Below are positions 1 to 6,529 of a stretch of 7,644 nucleotides of DNA, one piece after another (the stretch's first letter is position 1; every line of letters begins with the position of its first letter). The notes under the pieces were generated by a model. The model was not told where the DNA came from and searched no databases. It saw nothing but the letters and a program-made list of their open reading frames with translations. The translations under genes were made by a program, and so were the position numbers. The DNA is taken from contig CAKZLA010000370.1 in the NCBI GenBank assembly GCA_937124525.1, positions 1 through 7,644 on the forward strand. The letters are read 5' to 3'. The stretch comes from an uncultured Desulfobacterium sp. (GTDB lineage Bacteria; Desulfobacterota; Desulfobacteria; Desulfobacterales; Desulfobacteraceae).

Positions 1-779
1 CCCTTACCACCCGCTTCCACACCGATAATCCGCACGGGTTTGTCATCCAGAAACGGATAGAACAGGCCCATCGCGTTTGAGCCGCCACCGATACAGGCGA
101 TCACACTGTCGGGCAGGCGCCCTTCCTGTTCATGCAGCTGTTCCTTGGTTTCCTTGCCAATGATGGATTGAAAATAGGTCACCATCTCCGGAAAGGGGTG
201 GGGACCACAGGCGGTTCCCAGTACATAATGGGTGGTTTCCATATTTGTCACCCAGTCCCGGAAGGCTTCGTTGATGGCATCCTTTAATATCCGGGTACCG
301 TCGGTGACTGGGACCACCGTAGCCCCCATCTGCTCCATCCAGAACACGTTGGGTCGCTGGCGTTTTACATCCACCTCTCCCATGTAAATGGTACAATCAA
401 ACCCGAATTTGGCTGCCATGGTGGCCGTGGCCACCCCGTGCTGGCCCGCCCCGGTCTCTGCAATTACCCGGGTTTTACCCATTTTTTTCACCAGAAGTCC
501 CTGGCCCATGACATTATTGGCCTTGTGGGCCCCGGTGTGGTTGAGATCTTCCCGTTTGATGTAAATTTTTGCCCCGCCAAAATGTTTTGTCAAATTTTCT
601 GCATAGGTAAGCGGGGTGGCCCGGCAGGAGTAAGTGGACATGAGATCCACATAGGACTCCCAAAAGGTGGGATCATTTTTTATCTCATTGAAATGGCCCA
701 CCAGGTCATCAAAGGTGGCTGTCAGGATTTCGGGGATGAATGCACCGCCGAACTCCCCGTAATATCCACGTTTATTCAT
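1..779 (-). CDS. trpB: Tryptophan synthase beta chain, N-terminal two thirds (runs off left edge)
   Basis: TrpB condenses indole with L-serine to give L-tryptophan using pyridoxal phosphate, in the cytosol with TrpA. I translated the whole minus-strand frame: 259 intact codons of the usual 390-400, no stop or frameshift. Visible family features: start [12 protein letters not shown], the PLP-lysine motif H-T-G-A-H-K-A-N-N with the Schiff-base lysine at residue 86, the catalytic glutamate in E-T-G-A-G-Q-H-G (E108), R-Q-R-P-N-V-F-W-M near 140-148, and the phosphate-binding loop G-G-G-S-N-A at 231-236. The start is supported by a GGAGG site 10 bases upstream, which lies inside the preceding regulator gene. 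The start codon overlaps the regulator's stop (ATGAATAA, 772-779), so the two are probably translated in a coupled way. The C-terminus, and perhaps trpA, lie outside the window. Confidence 0.97.
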
Positions 780-1503
780 GTGTATTGCCTCCAAGGGTCT
801 GTGAAAAAACAAATTGGTCTGTGCGACATAATAGTTCTGAGTAAACCGCATTTTTTGCCTGGGGAAAATCCAGAAATCGTTTCACCAACAAAACAGGCTC
901 ATCCATGCCAAGGCCGAGGATATCGGCCTGGAATGGAGAGAGACAAGTCACCCGGAAATTTTGTCTCCCACAATCCGGTACCATATAAAATTTATCAGAC
1001 ACCACCAGGGCCAGGGATTTTCCCGTGAGATCCATGTGCTCAATGCCCTTGAACAAGGTGGGATGAAGATAAATATTTTCCAGCACCACCGGCGCTTTCC
1101 TGGCTATGGTTAATCGGGTGACGCAATAGGCATCTCCCCCGGAAAAAGGATTTTCATCATCACCTGAAATTGGCTTCAGACATATGGGGTTGACTATTTG
1201 AATCTCAATGTCAATGCCCTTACGATGAAAGGCAGATGAAGTGCCTGCAAGGGAAAAAAGATCCACATCATCCCTTAGTTCTGCAACAAAAGTCCCGGCC
1301 CCCCGTCGTCTTTTGACCAACCCTTTTCTCGCCAGAATATCCACTGCCTGACGGGCTGTGGGACGTCCAATGCCATAGGTCTGTGCAAGGCCCACTTCTG
1401 CTGGGATACGGGTTCCGGGAGCATATTCTCCGGATCTTATTTTTGATGTTAAAATCTCTGCCAGCTGATGGTACAGCGGCAGGGGAGACTCAGTATTCAG
1501 CAT
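772..1503 (-). CDS. GntR-family (HutC/UTRA type) transcriptional regulator, overlapping trpB
   Basis: A 243-residue ligand-responsive DNA-binding protein, the normal length for the HutC subfamily. Residues 5-75 form the winged helix-turn-helix: P-L-Y-H-Q-L near 9-14, I-R-S-G-E-Y near 22-27, the recognition helix around R-P-T-A-R-Q-A at 47-53 and the wing R-R-R-G-A-G-T-F-V at 65-73. Residues about 95-240 fit a UTRA effector-binding domain, with A-Y-C-V-T-R-L near 125-131, L-E-N-I-Y-L near 141-146 and the closing Y-S-E-L-L-C-R-T-D segment near 221-229. The start ATG at 1503 has a weak AGGT-type site upstream. Its last 8 bases overlap trpB, so I infer it controls trpB and itself; the effector may be tryptophan or a precursor, but the sequence does not show which. 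A good promoter and a 14-bp inverted repeat lie upstream. Confidence 0.92.
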
Positions 1504-2281: not shown

Positions 2282-2857
2282 ATGGAAGACACCATGACCG
2301 TATTTACTGCAAGTAAACATTGCAATGTATCGTCAAAAACCATCATTAACTGGGTTGAGGCCGGTCACATCAAGGCTTACAAAACAGTGGGGGGCCACCG
2401 CAGAATCAAAAAAACAGATCTTGAAGAATTCATGGAAATTCAGGGCATTCCCATCCCCCATGCCCGGGAAAAGGGAGGTGGCAAAAAAATTCTGGTGGTG
2501 GATGACGATATGATCATCGTAGAGTCCATTGTTCAGTCCCTGGAGGAGGACGAATATGATTATGAAGTGATCTCGGCCTCGGACGGATTTGAAGCAGGAC
2601 TCCAGGTCAACCATTTTAAACCGGATCTACTCATCCTGGATATCATGATGCCGGACATCAAGGGGTATGAGGTGTGTAAAAAAATAAAATCCACAGAGGA
2701 GACCGCCCACATCAAAATCATCGTCCTCTCCGCCTATCTTGACGATGAAAAATTCCAGCAAATGAAGGATAACGGTGCGGACATGTGCCTGTCAAAACCC
2801 CTGCCCCTGTCCCAGTTAAAAAATGAAGTGGCAAGACTGCTTGGACTTAAAGAATAG
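2282..2857 (+). CDS. Response regulator with N-terminal MerR/excisionase-like HTH and C-terminal receiver domain
   Basis: A 191-residue cytosolic regulator. Residues 5-52 form a MerR/excisionase-like helix-turn-helix (V-F-T-A-S-K-H-C-N-V-S at 7-17, then I-N-W-V-E-A-G-H-I and the wing T-V-G-G-H-R-R-I at 35-42). A glycine/lysine linker at about 61-69 leads to a CheY-like receiver at 69-190, with acidic pair D74/D75, phospho-acceptor D120 in L-L-I-L-D-I-M-M-P-D, the Ser/Thr switch at S150 and the conserved K172 in S-K-P. The order, DNA-binding domain first, is the reverse of most response regulators. I chose the ATG at 2282 over the upstream one at 2231 because AAGGAGGG (2267-2274) is well placed and the HTH starts right after it. 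No histidine kinase is adjacent. metF begins 10 bases later, so they are very likely cotranscribed. Confidence 0.92.
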   Translation: MEDTMTVFTASKHCNVSSKTIINWVEAGHIKAYKTVGGHRRIKKTDLEEFMEIQGIPIPHAREKGGGKKILVVDDDMIIVESIVQSLEEDEYDYEVISASDGFEAGLQVNHFKPDLLILDIMMPDIKGYEVCKKIKSTEETAHIKIIVLSAYLDDEKFQQMKDNGADMCLSKPLPLSQLKNEVARLLGLKE

Positions 2858-2867
2858 GAGGCCTATC

Positions 2868-3746
2868 ATGAGCTTGAAAGACTCACTGGAAAAAAAGAAA
2901 TTTGTCGTAACCTCAGAGATACAGGCCCCCATGGGGGATGATGATCCCCAGGAACTGATCAAAAGTTTGAACAGGGTCAAGGGACGGGTGGACGGTGTCT
3001 CACTATCTGAAGTGGAACTTGAAGGGGTGGTGGGAGATAGCATCCAGACCTGCGATCTGCTTCGCCAGAATCGTTTTAATGCCATTTATCAGACCACCAC
3101 CAGGGATAAAAACCGATTTCAACTCCAGCGGGATCTCACCCTGGCCCATGAGGCCGGTGTTGAAAATATCCTGGTATTCACCGAAGACTATCGCATTTCC
3201 GGGGACAGTCTCCAGGAGTCCATGTTTTTCCATGTGGATTCAGGAAAATTGTCATCGGTGCTGGAGCACATGAAACAGGGGCAAACCATTGACGGCAGTC
3301 CTCTGGAGCAAAAGGTGGAATTCATTATGGGCTCCGGCGTGGAAACACCCTGGGGAAAAAATCTTCCCAAACGGGGCATGGAAGAGATGGAGGACATGAT
3401 CAATGTGGGAACCGGTTATTTTCTCACCACCCCCATATTTGACCTGGATCAGTTTGAAAAATTCATGAAACAGGCGAACACCTTTGGGGTACCCGTCATC
3501 GCCGAAGTGATGATCCTTCGCACCGGAGGCATGGCGAAATTTCTTAACCGCCATTTTAAGTCTGGACTGGTACCGGAATGGGCCGTGCAAAAACTGTTAA
3601 AGGCCCCGGATAAAACCCGGGCCAGCATTGAACTCTTTGCCGATACCATCAAAGGACTTAAGGATCTGTGCCAGGGGGTACACATCATCACCATTGGCGG
3701 CGAAGACAAGCTTGGCGAATATCTTGATGCAGCCAAACTGCGATAA
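2868..3746 (+). CDS. metF: Methylenetetrahydrofolate reductase family protein (MetF type)
   Basis: A 292-residue protein, full length for bacterial MetF. The family binds FAD in a TIM barrel and interconverts methylene- and methyl-tetrahydrofolate in the cytosol. In sulfate reducers this is the last tetrahydrofolate-bound step of the Wood-Ljungdahl methyl branch, run reductively for CO2 fixation or oxidatively for acetate oxidation. Supporting features: the strand V-T-S-E-I-Q-A-P near 14-21 with the likely catalytic glutamate E17, the segment Y-Q-T-T-T-R-D-K-N-R-F-Q-L-Q-R-D-L near 72-88 and the C-terminal H-I-I-T-I-G-G-E-D stretch. The ATG at 2868 is preferred over an in-frame ATG at 2823 because AGGAG (2856-2860) precedes it and the earlier start would overlap the regulator. 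No adjacent MetV-like zinc protein is visible. With Hdr-type genes downstream, it may take or give electrons through them. Confidence 0.88.
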   Translation: MSLKDSLEKKKFVVTSEIQAPMGDDDPQELIKSLNRVKGRVDGVSLSEVELEGVVGDSIQTCDLLRQNRFNAIYQTTTRDKNRFQLQRDLTLAHEAGVENILVFTEDYRISGDSLQESMFFHVDSGKLSSVLEHMKQGQTIDGSPLEQKVEFIMGSGVETPWGKNLPKRGMEEMEDMINVGTGYFLTTPIFDLDQFEKFMKQANTFGVPVIAEVMILRTGGMAKFLNRHFKSGLVPEWAVQKLLKAPDKTRASIELFADTIKGLKDLCQGVHIITIGGEDKLGEYLDAAKLR

Positions 3747-4037: not shown

Positions 4038-4060
4038 TATCCTGGTTTTTAAGGAGGATA
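4038..4060 (+). promoter_or_regulatory. Inverted repeat covering the ribosome site of the Hdr-type gene
   Basis: TATCCT (4038-4043) can pair with AGGATA (4055-4060), which contains the 3' part of the strong ribosome site AAGGAGG (4051-4057). The loop is 11 bases. If it forms, it would partly mask the site and restrain translation of the selenoprotein. The stem is only 6 bp and mostly A-U, so the effect may be small. Confidence 0.3.
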
Positions 4061-4067
4061 ACAAAAA

Positions 4068-5372
4068 ATGACTGATTCAATTGCGCTTGATGAGCTCACC
4101 TGCGAATTAAAAAATGAGGTGGCAAGCCGTGTCCCCGATGCAAACCTTGATCTATGCCTCACCTGCGGGGCCTGCACCGGCGGATGCCCGGCCAGCGGAC
4201 AGTTTGACATGGACCCCAGAAAATTTTTACGCATGCTGCTCTTGGGCATGGATGATGAAATTGTTAAAAATCCCTGGGCCTGGGTGTGCACCATGTGCGG
4301 TCGCTGTGTCACGGCCTGTCCCATGAAAATTAATATCCCCAAATTTATTTTTAATGTCAGGGCCGCCTGGTCCCGGGAAAAAAGACCCAAAGGTATCAGG
4401 GGCTCCTGCGACCAGCACATCCGATCGGGAAATGCCATGGGCGTTCCCAAGGAAGATTTTGTATTTACCATTGAAGATGTGGCCGAAGAAATCAAGGAGG
4501 AACAACCCGATTTTGGCGGCTTAAATATCACCGCAGACCGTGTCGGTGCCCACATGGTGTTAAACCAGAACTCCCGGGAACCTGTCACCGAACCCGATGA
4601 GATGAGTCCCTTATGGAAGGTGCTCCACCTCACCGGTGTGGATTGGACCTATCCCACGGTTATGTGGGGGGGGGAAAATTATTGCATGTTTCTGGCCGAT
4701 GACGAAGGGTGGAGATATATCATGGAGGAGTTTGCCCACCACATCGAACACACCATTAAGGCCAAGGTGGTGGTCAACACCGAGTGAGGACATTCCTACT
4801 ATTCAATCCTGGAAGGATTGAGAAAATTCAATATCCCCCACACCTTTGAACTGAAAAGTATCATTGAACTCTTTGCCCAGTGGATCAAAGAAGGCACGTT
4901 AAAGGTCAACGCCGACTGGAACAAAGATCTTAAGATAAAATTCACAGTACAGGACCCATGCAATATCGCCAGAAAAATTGAATCTGACCACATCGTGGAT
5001 GACCTCAGATTTGTCATCAAAACCATTGTGGGGGAAGAAAATTTCATGGACATGATTCCCAATAGGTCTAACAATTTTTGCTGCGGGGGCGGGGGCGGTG
5101 CCCTCCAGGCCGGACACACCGAACAGCGGCGGGCCTATGGAAAAATAAAATTTGACCAGATCATTGAAACCGGGGCAGATTATGTCATCACCCCCTGTCA
5201 CAACTGCCATGCACAGATTGAAGATATTGGCCACCATTACGGCGGTTCTTATCACACGGTCCACCTCTGGACCATCATCTGTCTTGCCATGGGCATCCTG
5301 GGCGAAAATGAGAGAACCTATCTCGGCCCGGACCTGGCAGAACATGGACTTGAAAAGGAGGAGACATCATGA
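4068..5372 (+). CDS. Hdr/DsrK-like iron-sulfur selenoprotein (HdrC-HdrB type fusion), TGA at 4785-4787 read as selenocysteine 240
   Basis: One frame of 435 codons runs from an ATG with AAGGAGG 10 bases upstream to TGA at 5370-5372, broken only by a TGA at codon 240. Read through, it gives a 434-residue cytosolic electron-transfer protein. Residues 30-84 hold two [4Fe-4S] motifs of HdrC type (C30, C33, C36, C40; C74, C77, C80, C84). Residues about 190-385 form the HdrB/HdrD-like part with a CCG motif: C298 in D-P-C, C338-C339 in C-C-G-G-G-G-G and C377/C380 in C-H-N-C. The TGA falls in V-V-V-N-T-E-[TGA]-G-H-S-Y-Y, where DsrK-like relatives carry E-C-G-H-A-Y. A SECIS-like hairpin follows. The first half-site is reduced (C206 alone, then Sec240), so probably one non-cubane cluster is kept. 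The stop overlaps the hdrA-like start (ATGA). A routine gene caller would split it, giving a false start at TTG 4818. Confidence 0.85.
4785..4822 (+). promoter_or_regulatory. Bacterial SECIS element: UGA codon plus downstream hairpin
   Basis: After the UGA (4785-4787), TCAATCC (4803-4809) pairs perfectly with GGATTGA (4815-4821), extended by a U-G wobble (4802/4822). The apical loop is UGGAA, with a G among its first two bases. The loop begins 22 bases after the UGA. Known bacterial SECIS elements lie inside the coding region just 3' of the UGA, with a short stem, a small loop with an early G and a similar distance; SelB binds them to deliver selenocysteyl-tRNA. The hairpin encodes S-I-L-E-G-L-R without a frame break. 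Confidence 0.75.
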
Positions 5373-6529
5373 CCGGAAACCCAACGGGATCTGTAATGGT
5401 TGTCGGCGCTGGCATTGCAGGGATTCAAGCCTCCCTGGACCTTGCCGATGCGGGTTATCTTGTATATCTTGTGGAAAAGGATACCGCCATTGGAGGTGTC
5501 ATGGCCCAGCTGGATAAAACCTTTCCCACCAATGACTGCTCCATGTGCATAATATCTCCCAAACTTGTGGAGGCGGGACGTCATCTCAACATTGAACTGA
5601 TGCCCATGACCACGGTGAATGCCGTAAATGGCAGTGCCGGTGATTTCACGGTGGGCCTCACAAAGGCCCCCCGGTTCATTGACATGGAAAAATGCACCGC
5701 CTGTGGCGAATGTCATACCGTGTGCCCGGTGGAGCTGCCCAACCCCTTTGATGAAGGATTATCTTCCAAAAGAGCTGCTTTTAAACTCTATCCCCAGGCC
5801 ATGCCCAGCGCCTTTTCCATTGACAAGGGGGACCGGGCACCGTGCAAACTCACCTGCCCTGCCGGCCTCAATGTCCAGGGCTATGTGCAGATGGTGAAAC
5901 AGGGTAATTACAAAAAAGCCCTGGAGATCATCATGGAACAGCTCCCGCGTGTCCGGCGCGACGGGATGGCCCCCGAGGGCTTTGTCGATGAGGTGCTCCG
6001 CCCCGAGGCCGCGCGGCGGGTCGGGGAGGAAGCGCTCGCCGCAAGCCTCGATTCACCGTGGGTCACTAGCCGCCTGACCACCTCGGCCGAGGTCTACCAC
6101 CGCACCCCCAACCCGCACACCGCCGTTGATGCGGGACACGACAAACCCGTGCCCGCCAAACGTTATGTGCGTGCGCAGGTCAAAAGCCCCTTCGGGAAGT
6201 GTGGTGTTATATCCACGTTCGGTTTCCAACGGAATGTAGTCACCCAAAGTACGCGCCAGACGATGGGACCAAGCACCAGCCGCAATGACAACACGGTCAG
6301 CGTGCAAATCACTGTTTTGCGTTGTCAGCCTGACGCCGTCGCCGTCTTTTTCCAGGGTCAGGACTTCGACCTGTTCGATGACGCCACCACGAGCCTGAAA
6401 GACCTGCGCCAAGTGCTCTGCCCACAGGCGCGGGTCAATGGTGTTCATCCAGTCTGGTGTGAAAGCGGCGTGAGTGAAGCGTGCGTCAATACCTGGTTGG
6501 ATATCTGCAATGGCACCTGGGCTTTCTAG
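5369..6529 (+). CDS. HdrA-like FAD/iron-sulfur protein, N-terminal 193 residues only; remainder of the frame is chimeric
   Basis: HdrA-type proteins carry FAD and iron-sulfur clusters and pass or bifurcate electrons between Hdr partners, ferredoxin and other carriers. The start at 5369 has AAGGAGG (5355-5361) and overlaps the previous stop. Residues 8-37 are an FAD-binding fold (V-G-A-G-I-A-G at 12-18). The HdrA signature L-D-K-T-F-P-T-N-D-C-S-M-C lies at 48-60, and a [4Fe-4S] motif at C109, C112, C115, C119. Then a GltD-like Fer4_20 segment begins (A-P-C-K-L-T-C-P-A-G at 157-166), as in long HdrA fusions. Family similarity stops after E-Q-L-P (residue 193, base 5947). Residues 194-243 are G+C-rich and unrecognised, and from about 6098 the frame is antisense to a DadA-like gene. 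The stop at 6529 therefore has no meaning for this protein, which should be far longer. Confidence 0.75.
   Translation: MTGNPTGSVMVVGAGIAGIQASLDLADAGYLVYLVEKDTAIGGVMAQLDKTFPTNDCSMCIISPKLVEAGRHLNIELMPMTTVNAVNGSAGDFTVGLTKAPRFIDMEKCTACGECHTVCPVELPNPFDEGLSSKRAAFKLYPQAMPSAFSIDKGDRAPCKLTCPAGLNVQGYVQMVKQGNYKKALEIIMEQLPRVRRDGMAPEGFVDEVLRPEAARRVGEEALAASLDSPWVTSRLTTSAEVYHRTPNPHTAVDAGHDKPVPAKRYVRAQVKSPFGKCGVISTFGFQRNVVTQSTRQTMGPSTSRNDNTVSVQITVLRCQPDAVAVFFQGQDFDLFDDATTSLKDLRQVLCPQARVNGVHPVWCESGVSEACVNTWLDICNGTWAF
5948..6097 (+). other. Unassigned G+C-rich segment between two broken genes
   Basis: By hand count, 5941-6100 is about 73% G+C, against about 50% in the HdrA-like gene and about 55% in the sampled DadA-like lines. 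The plus-strand frame continuing from hdrA is open here and nearly every third codon position is G or C, as in a real gene of a G+C-rich genome. Its roughly 50 residues (e.g. R-V-G-E-E-A-L-A-A-S-L-D-S-P-W) match no family I recognise. A perfect 14-bp palindrome, ACCTCGGCCGAGGT, lies at 6080-6093 next to the right junction. It may be a fragment of a third gene captured between two breakpoints. Confidence 0.5.

Follow-up and report, generated by a model that had tools for sequence, protein, structure and literature searches.

The window analysed here is a 7,644-nucleotide stretch of an uncultured Desulfobacterium sp., a sulfate-reducing bacterium (contig CAKZLA010000370.1). At 4068..5372 (+) it carries a gene for a fusion of the heterodisulfide reductase (Hdr) subunits HdrC and HdrB, an HdrD-type Fe-S oxidoreductase of 434 amino acids (aa), in which the TGA at codon 240 is, on comparative evidence, almost certainly translated as selenocysteine (Sec240). 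Taken as a whole, our explanation holds that Sec240 stands near a single noncubane cluster and that the protein would form the HdrBC arm of an Hdr-type methylene-tetrahydrofolate (methylene-THF) reductase of the Wood-Ljungdahl pathway; judging from sequence, we give it a probability of about three in four. The electron partner and the energetics of Hdr-type methylene-THF reductases are an open question, and a lone Sec that is swapped only for cysteine in the examined relatives suggests a chemically special site in the HdrB-like subunit. This makes Sec240 a residue to test, and the location of the gene among folate-reductase genes points to a function that can be tested as well.

Decoding of the TGA at codon 240

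The frame 4068-5372 (+) is open throughout except for one in-frame TGA (4785..4787, +), just as the original prediction had read it. It is preceded by a ribosome-binding site, AAGGAGG (4051..4057, +), and closed by a TGA terminator (5370..5372, +) that overlaps the ATG of hdrA; the residues around the window's Sec are VNTE-U-GH. Translation table 11 yields two open reading frames (ORFs), 4068-4787 (239 aa) and the TTG-started 4818-5372 (184 aa), the pair of truncated genes that had been foreseen for standard annotation. If the TGA were a true stop, the gene would be split or broken, or would carry a base error, and would give a 239-aa protein; the two table 11 ORFs, with a TTG start followed by 184 aa, would fit this, as would the imperfect assembly quality implied by a contig that looks chimeric further right. 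Set against it, the frame beyond the TGA retains all five cluster cysteines, and the same codon recurs in relatives. At the aligned position, 51 of the best 80 among 398 confirmed genome relatives carry TGA, the other 29 carry TGC or TGT, and no other codon occurs, which bears out the earlier claim that the TGA replaces the motif cysteine. A second survey covered 148 genomes of the phylum, 49 of which had a match, some loci duplicating the first set; in 30 loci it gave 25 TGA and 5 Cys, and all in-frame stops that it listed are TGA. We therefore rejected the stop or pseudogene reading, which is very improbable, on the codon column, the retained downstream cysteines and the hairpin comparison described below.

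Records of both Desulfatitalea alkaliphila and Desulfocicer vacuolatum DSM 3385 are among the TGA-bearing relatives. Desulfocicer vacuolatum has five close paralogues (L081-L085, genome G001), of which three contain Sec and two Cys, a set that possibly serves differing selenium supply. Among the 120 protein-database matches listed, the best identity is 71%, and 114 have TECGH at the motif, where U was perhaps printed as C; one relative (P0026), itself printed with Cys, bears the source name "oxidoreductase, selenocysteine-containing". Because the listed protein matches reach at most 71% identity although DNA relatives at 95% identity exist, routine gene calling seems to cut the genes of the window's own clade.

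This clade comprises loci L001-L025 and, with the window, occupies 26 rows of a 112-row tree (SH-like approximate likelihood ratio test 100), all of them Sec. The distribution of Sec and Cys requires 7 changes on that tree with the codon masked, against a shuffled mean of 29.4; the tree, which does not give the direction of change, was built quickly, with no bootstraps and some genes repeated, and L086, L092 and L093 were left out (L093 repeats L001). For the window and the 80 loci, patterns ending in GH or similar served to find the motif column, which partly builds in the invariance of G241 and H242 for those 81 rows; the other 31 rows were placed by tblastn alignment.

A hairpin resembling a bacterial selenocysteine insertion sequence (SECIS) follows the codon at 4803..4821 (+), with 8 bp, a 3-nt loop GGA and an apical loop whose first base is the 24th past the UGA. 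The original prediction had described a perfect 7-bp hairpin with loop UGGAA; this is confirmed, the count being 8 bp when the inner U-A pair is included. Folded by itself, as that prediction had suggested, the window's 51-nt segment is not significant (z -1.44, 17/200 shuffles as good), so that support for the hairpin comes from comparison across genes. In 51 distinct Sec rows, 95.6% of cells are paired in columns 19-26/30-37 after the UGA, with compensatory both-side changes at three pairs; none of 500 shuffles does as well in percentage of pairing, in cells altered on both sides or in covariation score, and pairing falls to 20-50% when the partner is shifted along. The same columns in the 29 Cys rows are 55.2% paired, which 396/500 shuffles equal. 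Scans of the window found no Rfam family at threshold and no tRNA.

The genes for Sec insertion were sought in relatives: selB in 50 genomes picked from the 69 loci first listed, and selA, selD and tRNA-Sec in 24 window-clade genomes, with 14 genomes as controls. selB exceeds its cut-off in 47/50 relatives' genomes vs 2/14 controls, selA in 22/24 vs 1/14 and selD in 22/24 vs 2/14, while tRNA-Sec passes in 19 of the 24, scoring 72-77 bits where the threshold is 47.

An open frame under TGA as a residue is not in itself proof of Sec, and the codon might be decoded without selenium as some other residue, by a Trp code or a suppressor. The column, however, is never Trp and is Cys in all 29 non-TGA relatives. 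TGA is also the terminator of 11/52 Sec genes, the window's included, and its meaning is therefore set by context. On the column, the hairpin and the TGA terminators, with sel genes present in relatives as well, we rejected this barely credible reading. Since the Cys/Sec column, the hairpin comparison and the relatives' sel genes agree, Sec240 is very likely real, and the earlier proposal of a probable selenocysteine is strongly supported by the three together.

Sec240 and the predicted noncubane cluster

The protein is an HdrC-HdrB fusion of HdrD type, not DsrK. Its 4Fe-4S dicluster and CCG domains score above cut-off (PF13183, 39.3 bits; PF02754, 44.7 bits). Far below cut-off, on the other hand, are the models for DsrK (NF045796, 115.6 bits against 400), HmcF (NF045711, 183.1 against 750) and TmcB (NF045724, 165.9 against 735), and membership of these three families was rejected on those scores; the equivalog cut-offs for HdrB (TIGR03288, 32.1 vs 345.15) and HdrC (TIGR03290, 63.8 vs 160 bits) also lie above the scores obtained. 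Of the earlier label "Hdr/DsrK-like", the first half stands as an HdrC-HdrB fusion and the second is loose. A predicted model (36 aligned sequences, predicted local distance difference test 81.8) superposes on EtfD (PDB 9ojn) over 364 residues at a root-mean-square deviation of 2.7 Å.

By profile alignment, U240-G241-H242-S243 falls on EtfD Cys581-Pro582-His583-Cys584, and a MAFFT alignment with the two-CCG paralogue L087 places U240 at the first Cys of the CxxC, in agreement with the HdrB placement considered below. His242 (codon 4791..4793, +) aligns with His583 and is His in 112/112 rows. In EtfD, Cys637, 672, 673, 709 and 712 hold the noncubane cluster, and His583 is a further ligand of it (PMC13083937). 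The equivalent C-terminal cysteines of our protein, C298, C338, C339, C377 and C380, aligned to HdrB (5odc_B, 44 bits), are present in all 112 rows. The second, N-terminal five-Cys set of HdrB was not found: residues 201-202, at its CC pair, are without Cys in the 112 rows, the N-terminal CxxC is reduced to U/C240, and residue 243 is not Cys. Because the five cysteines and H242 are conserved and the N-terminal ligands are gone, one noncubane cluster is expected, with one His reaching it and one Sec/Cys two residues off; the likely picture is of Sec240 as a solitary selenolate next to that cluster. The original prediction had set Sec240 on the substrate or cluster side of the CCG domain; it does lie in a CCG domain, but in the degenerate N-terminal one rather than the cluster-binding C-terminal one.

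These observations would fit the following course. SelA, SelB, SelD and tRNA-Sec would insert Sec at codon 240, directed by the hairpin at 4803-4821, into a soluble fusion in which a 4Fe-4S dicluster part is followed by two predicted CCG domains. Only the C-terminal CCG domain keeps the five cysteine ligands for a noncubane [4Fe-4S] cluster; in the N-terminal CxxC, Sec240 stands in for the first Cys, and His242 has the position of EtfD His583. HdrCB may then move electrons between the flavin of HdrA and MetVF or a thiol/disulfide partner, and Sec240, as a low-pKa selenolate near the noncubane cluster, may tune the cluster or join the chemistry.

Whether Sec240 is chemically active rather than merely structural we consider an even question, and a reactive selenolate is closely rivalled by a residue that does no more than tune or support the cluster. 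In the structural alternative, to which we give somewhat less than even odds, Sec240 only takes over a structural or ligand position, HdrCB simply conducts electrons, as proposed for EtfD, and selenium tunes the potential or oxygen tolerance and touches no substrate. The closest solved structure is indeed EtfD, whose clusters are described as shielded and whose His583 renders the noncubane cluster non-catalytic (PMC13083937); the matching H242 is invariant, and Sec and Cys interchange along the tree. The other N-terminal ligands are lost, however, so that the linear cluster of EtfD does not explain why a Sec or Cys is kept in 112/112 rows. A Cys that is exchanged for Sec, moreover, is usually a chemically reactive one. 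We regard as unlikely, and advance only tentatively from sequence, the more specific proposal that Sec240, the noncubane cluster and His242 make up the reactive site of a selenium-dependent Hdr-type methylene-THF reductase, which would exchange electrons with a putative partner of disulfide- or persulfide-like nature; this partner would be the second electron acceptor or donor that Hdr-type methylene-THF reductases are missing. A selenenyl-sulfide between Sec240 and Cys206 was set aside as a general mechanism, as Cys206 is absent in 11/112 rows, 9 of them Sec forms.

Gene neighbourhood and the probable methylene-THF reductase link

The gene order of the window clade is response-regulator/helix-turn-helix gene, metF, hdrCB(Sec) and hdrA, often followed by mvhD(Sec)-metV. 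In the window, a helix-turn-helix and response-regulator protein (2282..2857, +; PF00072, PF12728) precedes a metF-like methylenetetrahydrofolate reductase (2868..3746, +; PF02219, 64.6 bits against a cut-off of 24), and both lie upstream in the same 24/24 clade loci with enough left flank. Downstream, hdrA is present in 24/24 clade loci with enough right flank. The window holds the 5' part of this gene (5369..5956, +; HdrL type), cut by a junction at about 5956; the whole gene in L001 encodes 1478 aa. The metF, metV, hdrC, hdrB, hdrA and mvhD set is complete in L001, where Pfam recognises MTHFR, FlpD (MvhD), a MetV-type PF12225 and an HdrA with Fer4_20 and Pyr_redox_2 parts, though not in every window-clade locus; the window, up to the junction, has metF, hdrCB and the beginning of hdrA. 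An mvhD match occurs in 17/25 window-clade loci, the second Cys of its CxxC being Sec in 13, Cys in 3 and uncovered in 1; in L001 (11750-12160) MvhD is probably a second selenoprotein, with FCCQY-U-AYAAGD. A metV match occurs in 13/25, several of the others having too little flank. Across the 80 loci, metF or metV matches accompany 34/51 Sec genes vs 0/29 Cys genes, and 24/31 vs 0/20 where at least 4 kb is available on both sides. From this gene order, MetF-HdrCB-HdrA-MvhD-MetV quite probably constitutes a functional unit.

Adjacency to metF could be only regulatory, and HdrCB(Sec) might act on protein disulfides, for instance by reducing the DsrC trisulfide, a reaction reportedly performed by DsrK. 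DsrC trisulfide reduction is also discussed for TmcB (PMC10553843). The best NCBIfam scores of our protein are those for HmcF, TmcB and DsrK, and its relatives are, by record names, sulfate-reducer groups; yet all three scores fall far below their cut-offs, the gene lies between metF and hdrA in every window-clade locus with enough flank, and no membrane or cytochrome protein occurs among the Pfam-scanned neighbours (near side of the junction and L001, their ORFs scanned in part). We consider this alternative improbable.

Several observations weigh against the methylene-THF reductase explanation and its parts. The association of Sec with the reductase genes is confounded by shared ancestry, the counts coming from related clades that are not independent; 17/51 Sec loci have no metF or metV match in the examined flanks, and L017, L018, L020 and L021 have no mvhD or metV match after hdrA within the flank. 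At the site itself, U240 falls on the first Cys of the HdrB N-terminal CxxC at 6.9 bits, which is not significant, and the His583 analogy may not carry over from EtfD, which is membrane-bound and serves a different function. Two covariation measures of the hairpin stay at shuffle level (pairs changed on both sides, 343/500; further pair types, 500/500). The tRNA-Sec model is not strictly specific, passing in 5/14 controls, and among the 24 window-clade genomes tRNA-Sec is below cut-off in 5, selA in 2 and selD in 2.

The right end of the contig is probably of different origin. Desulfocicer-like DNA and similarity to L001 run up to 5956, inside hdrA; beyond about 6099 the matches are to plasmid-group records of Ruegeria pomeroyi and further marine Rhodobacterales types (the best of 8 listed among 217 has 74.4% identity over 70% of this piece), and the piece carries, on the minus strand, genes for a Rhodobacterales-like FAD oxidoreductase and a TRAP transporter. 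None of the matches in the 8 listed records covers the 142 bases at 5957-6098. The likeliest account is an assembly chimera after 5956, with a real rearrangement as a conceivable alternative; the junction lies outside the studied gene. At the other end, 1-1503 (-) holds a trpB-like gene, which we take to be such from its sequence, and a GntR/UTRA regulator; L001 has similar ORFs, arranged in the same order.

Relation to known systems

The original prediction had called this a new or little-described Hdr selenoprotein, a claim that does not hold, as three papers already describe such proteins. An "Fe-S oxidoreductase (GlpC)" selenoprotein family was reported in 2006 (PMC1794560), Fe-S oxidoreductase-like (GlpC) selenoproteins with the motif UGH were tabulated in 2026 (PMC13188914), and a Sec-containing HdrD (HdrD4) was described in Desulfobacterium autotrophicum in 2009 (PMC2702500). 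The GlpC family as presented there shares with our protein Sec in UGH with Cys homologues, a bacterial SECIS, the Fe-S oxidoreductase type and a gene beside hdrA with an frhD/mvhD-type partner; its reference is WP_174406253.1, and the likeness is judged by motif and description. The published operon is glpC-hdrA-frhD-frhG-frhA with hydrogenase genes, whereas here hdrA adjoins the gene, mvhD follows in L001, and metF and metV were seen rather than hydrogenase genes, no search for frhG or frhA having been made. A distant Sec branch (L122 6294-7580, L123 and L124) has the motif LLPE-U-GHAYYA and a different gene set; L122 and L124 have hdrA and mvhD matches and L123 has none, and the branch may be nearer the published GlpC operon. 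HdrD4 is likened by description: it too is an HdrC-HdrB fusion with Sec and no membrane part.

With the Hdr-type methylene-THF reductases of Moorella and Sporomusa (PMC9430772), the cluster shares metF, metV, hdrCBA and mvhD, and the extra Fer4_20 and Pyr_redox_2 parts of HdrA resemble the GltD-bearing HdrA of Moorella; the same source treats a dithiol co-reductant as possible but unproven. In Seep-SRB1g, metF adjoins HdrABC (PMC10553843), as in the window clade. The difference from all three is that here HdrC and HdrB are fused and Sec is found in HdrCB and often in MvhD, while the available descriptions (PMC9430772, PMC10553843) mention no Sec in HdrB; within open-access PMC text, as far as it was available, no report of a Sec HdrB-like subunit in a methylene-THF reductase cluster was found. 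EtfD of Mycobacterium smegmatis (9ojn; PMC13083937), as described, shares the fold, a CxHC aligned with UGH and the C-terminal noncubane ligands, but differs in that our protein has no membrane part and has lost the N-terminal linear-cluster ligands except at Sec240. Sec in the HdrCB family is already known; what is added here is its place in an Hdr-type methylene-THF reductase gene cluster.
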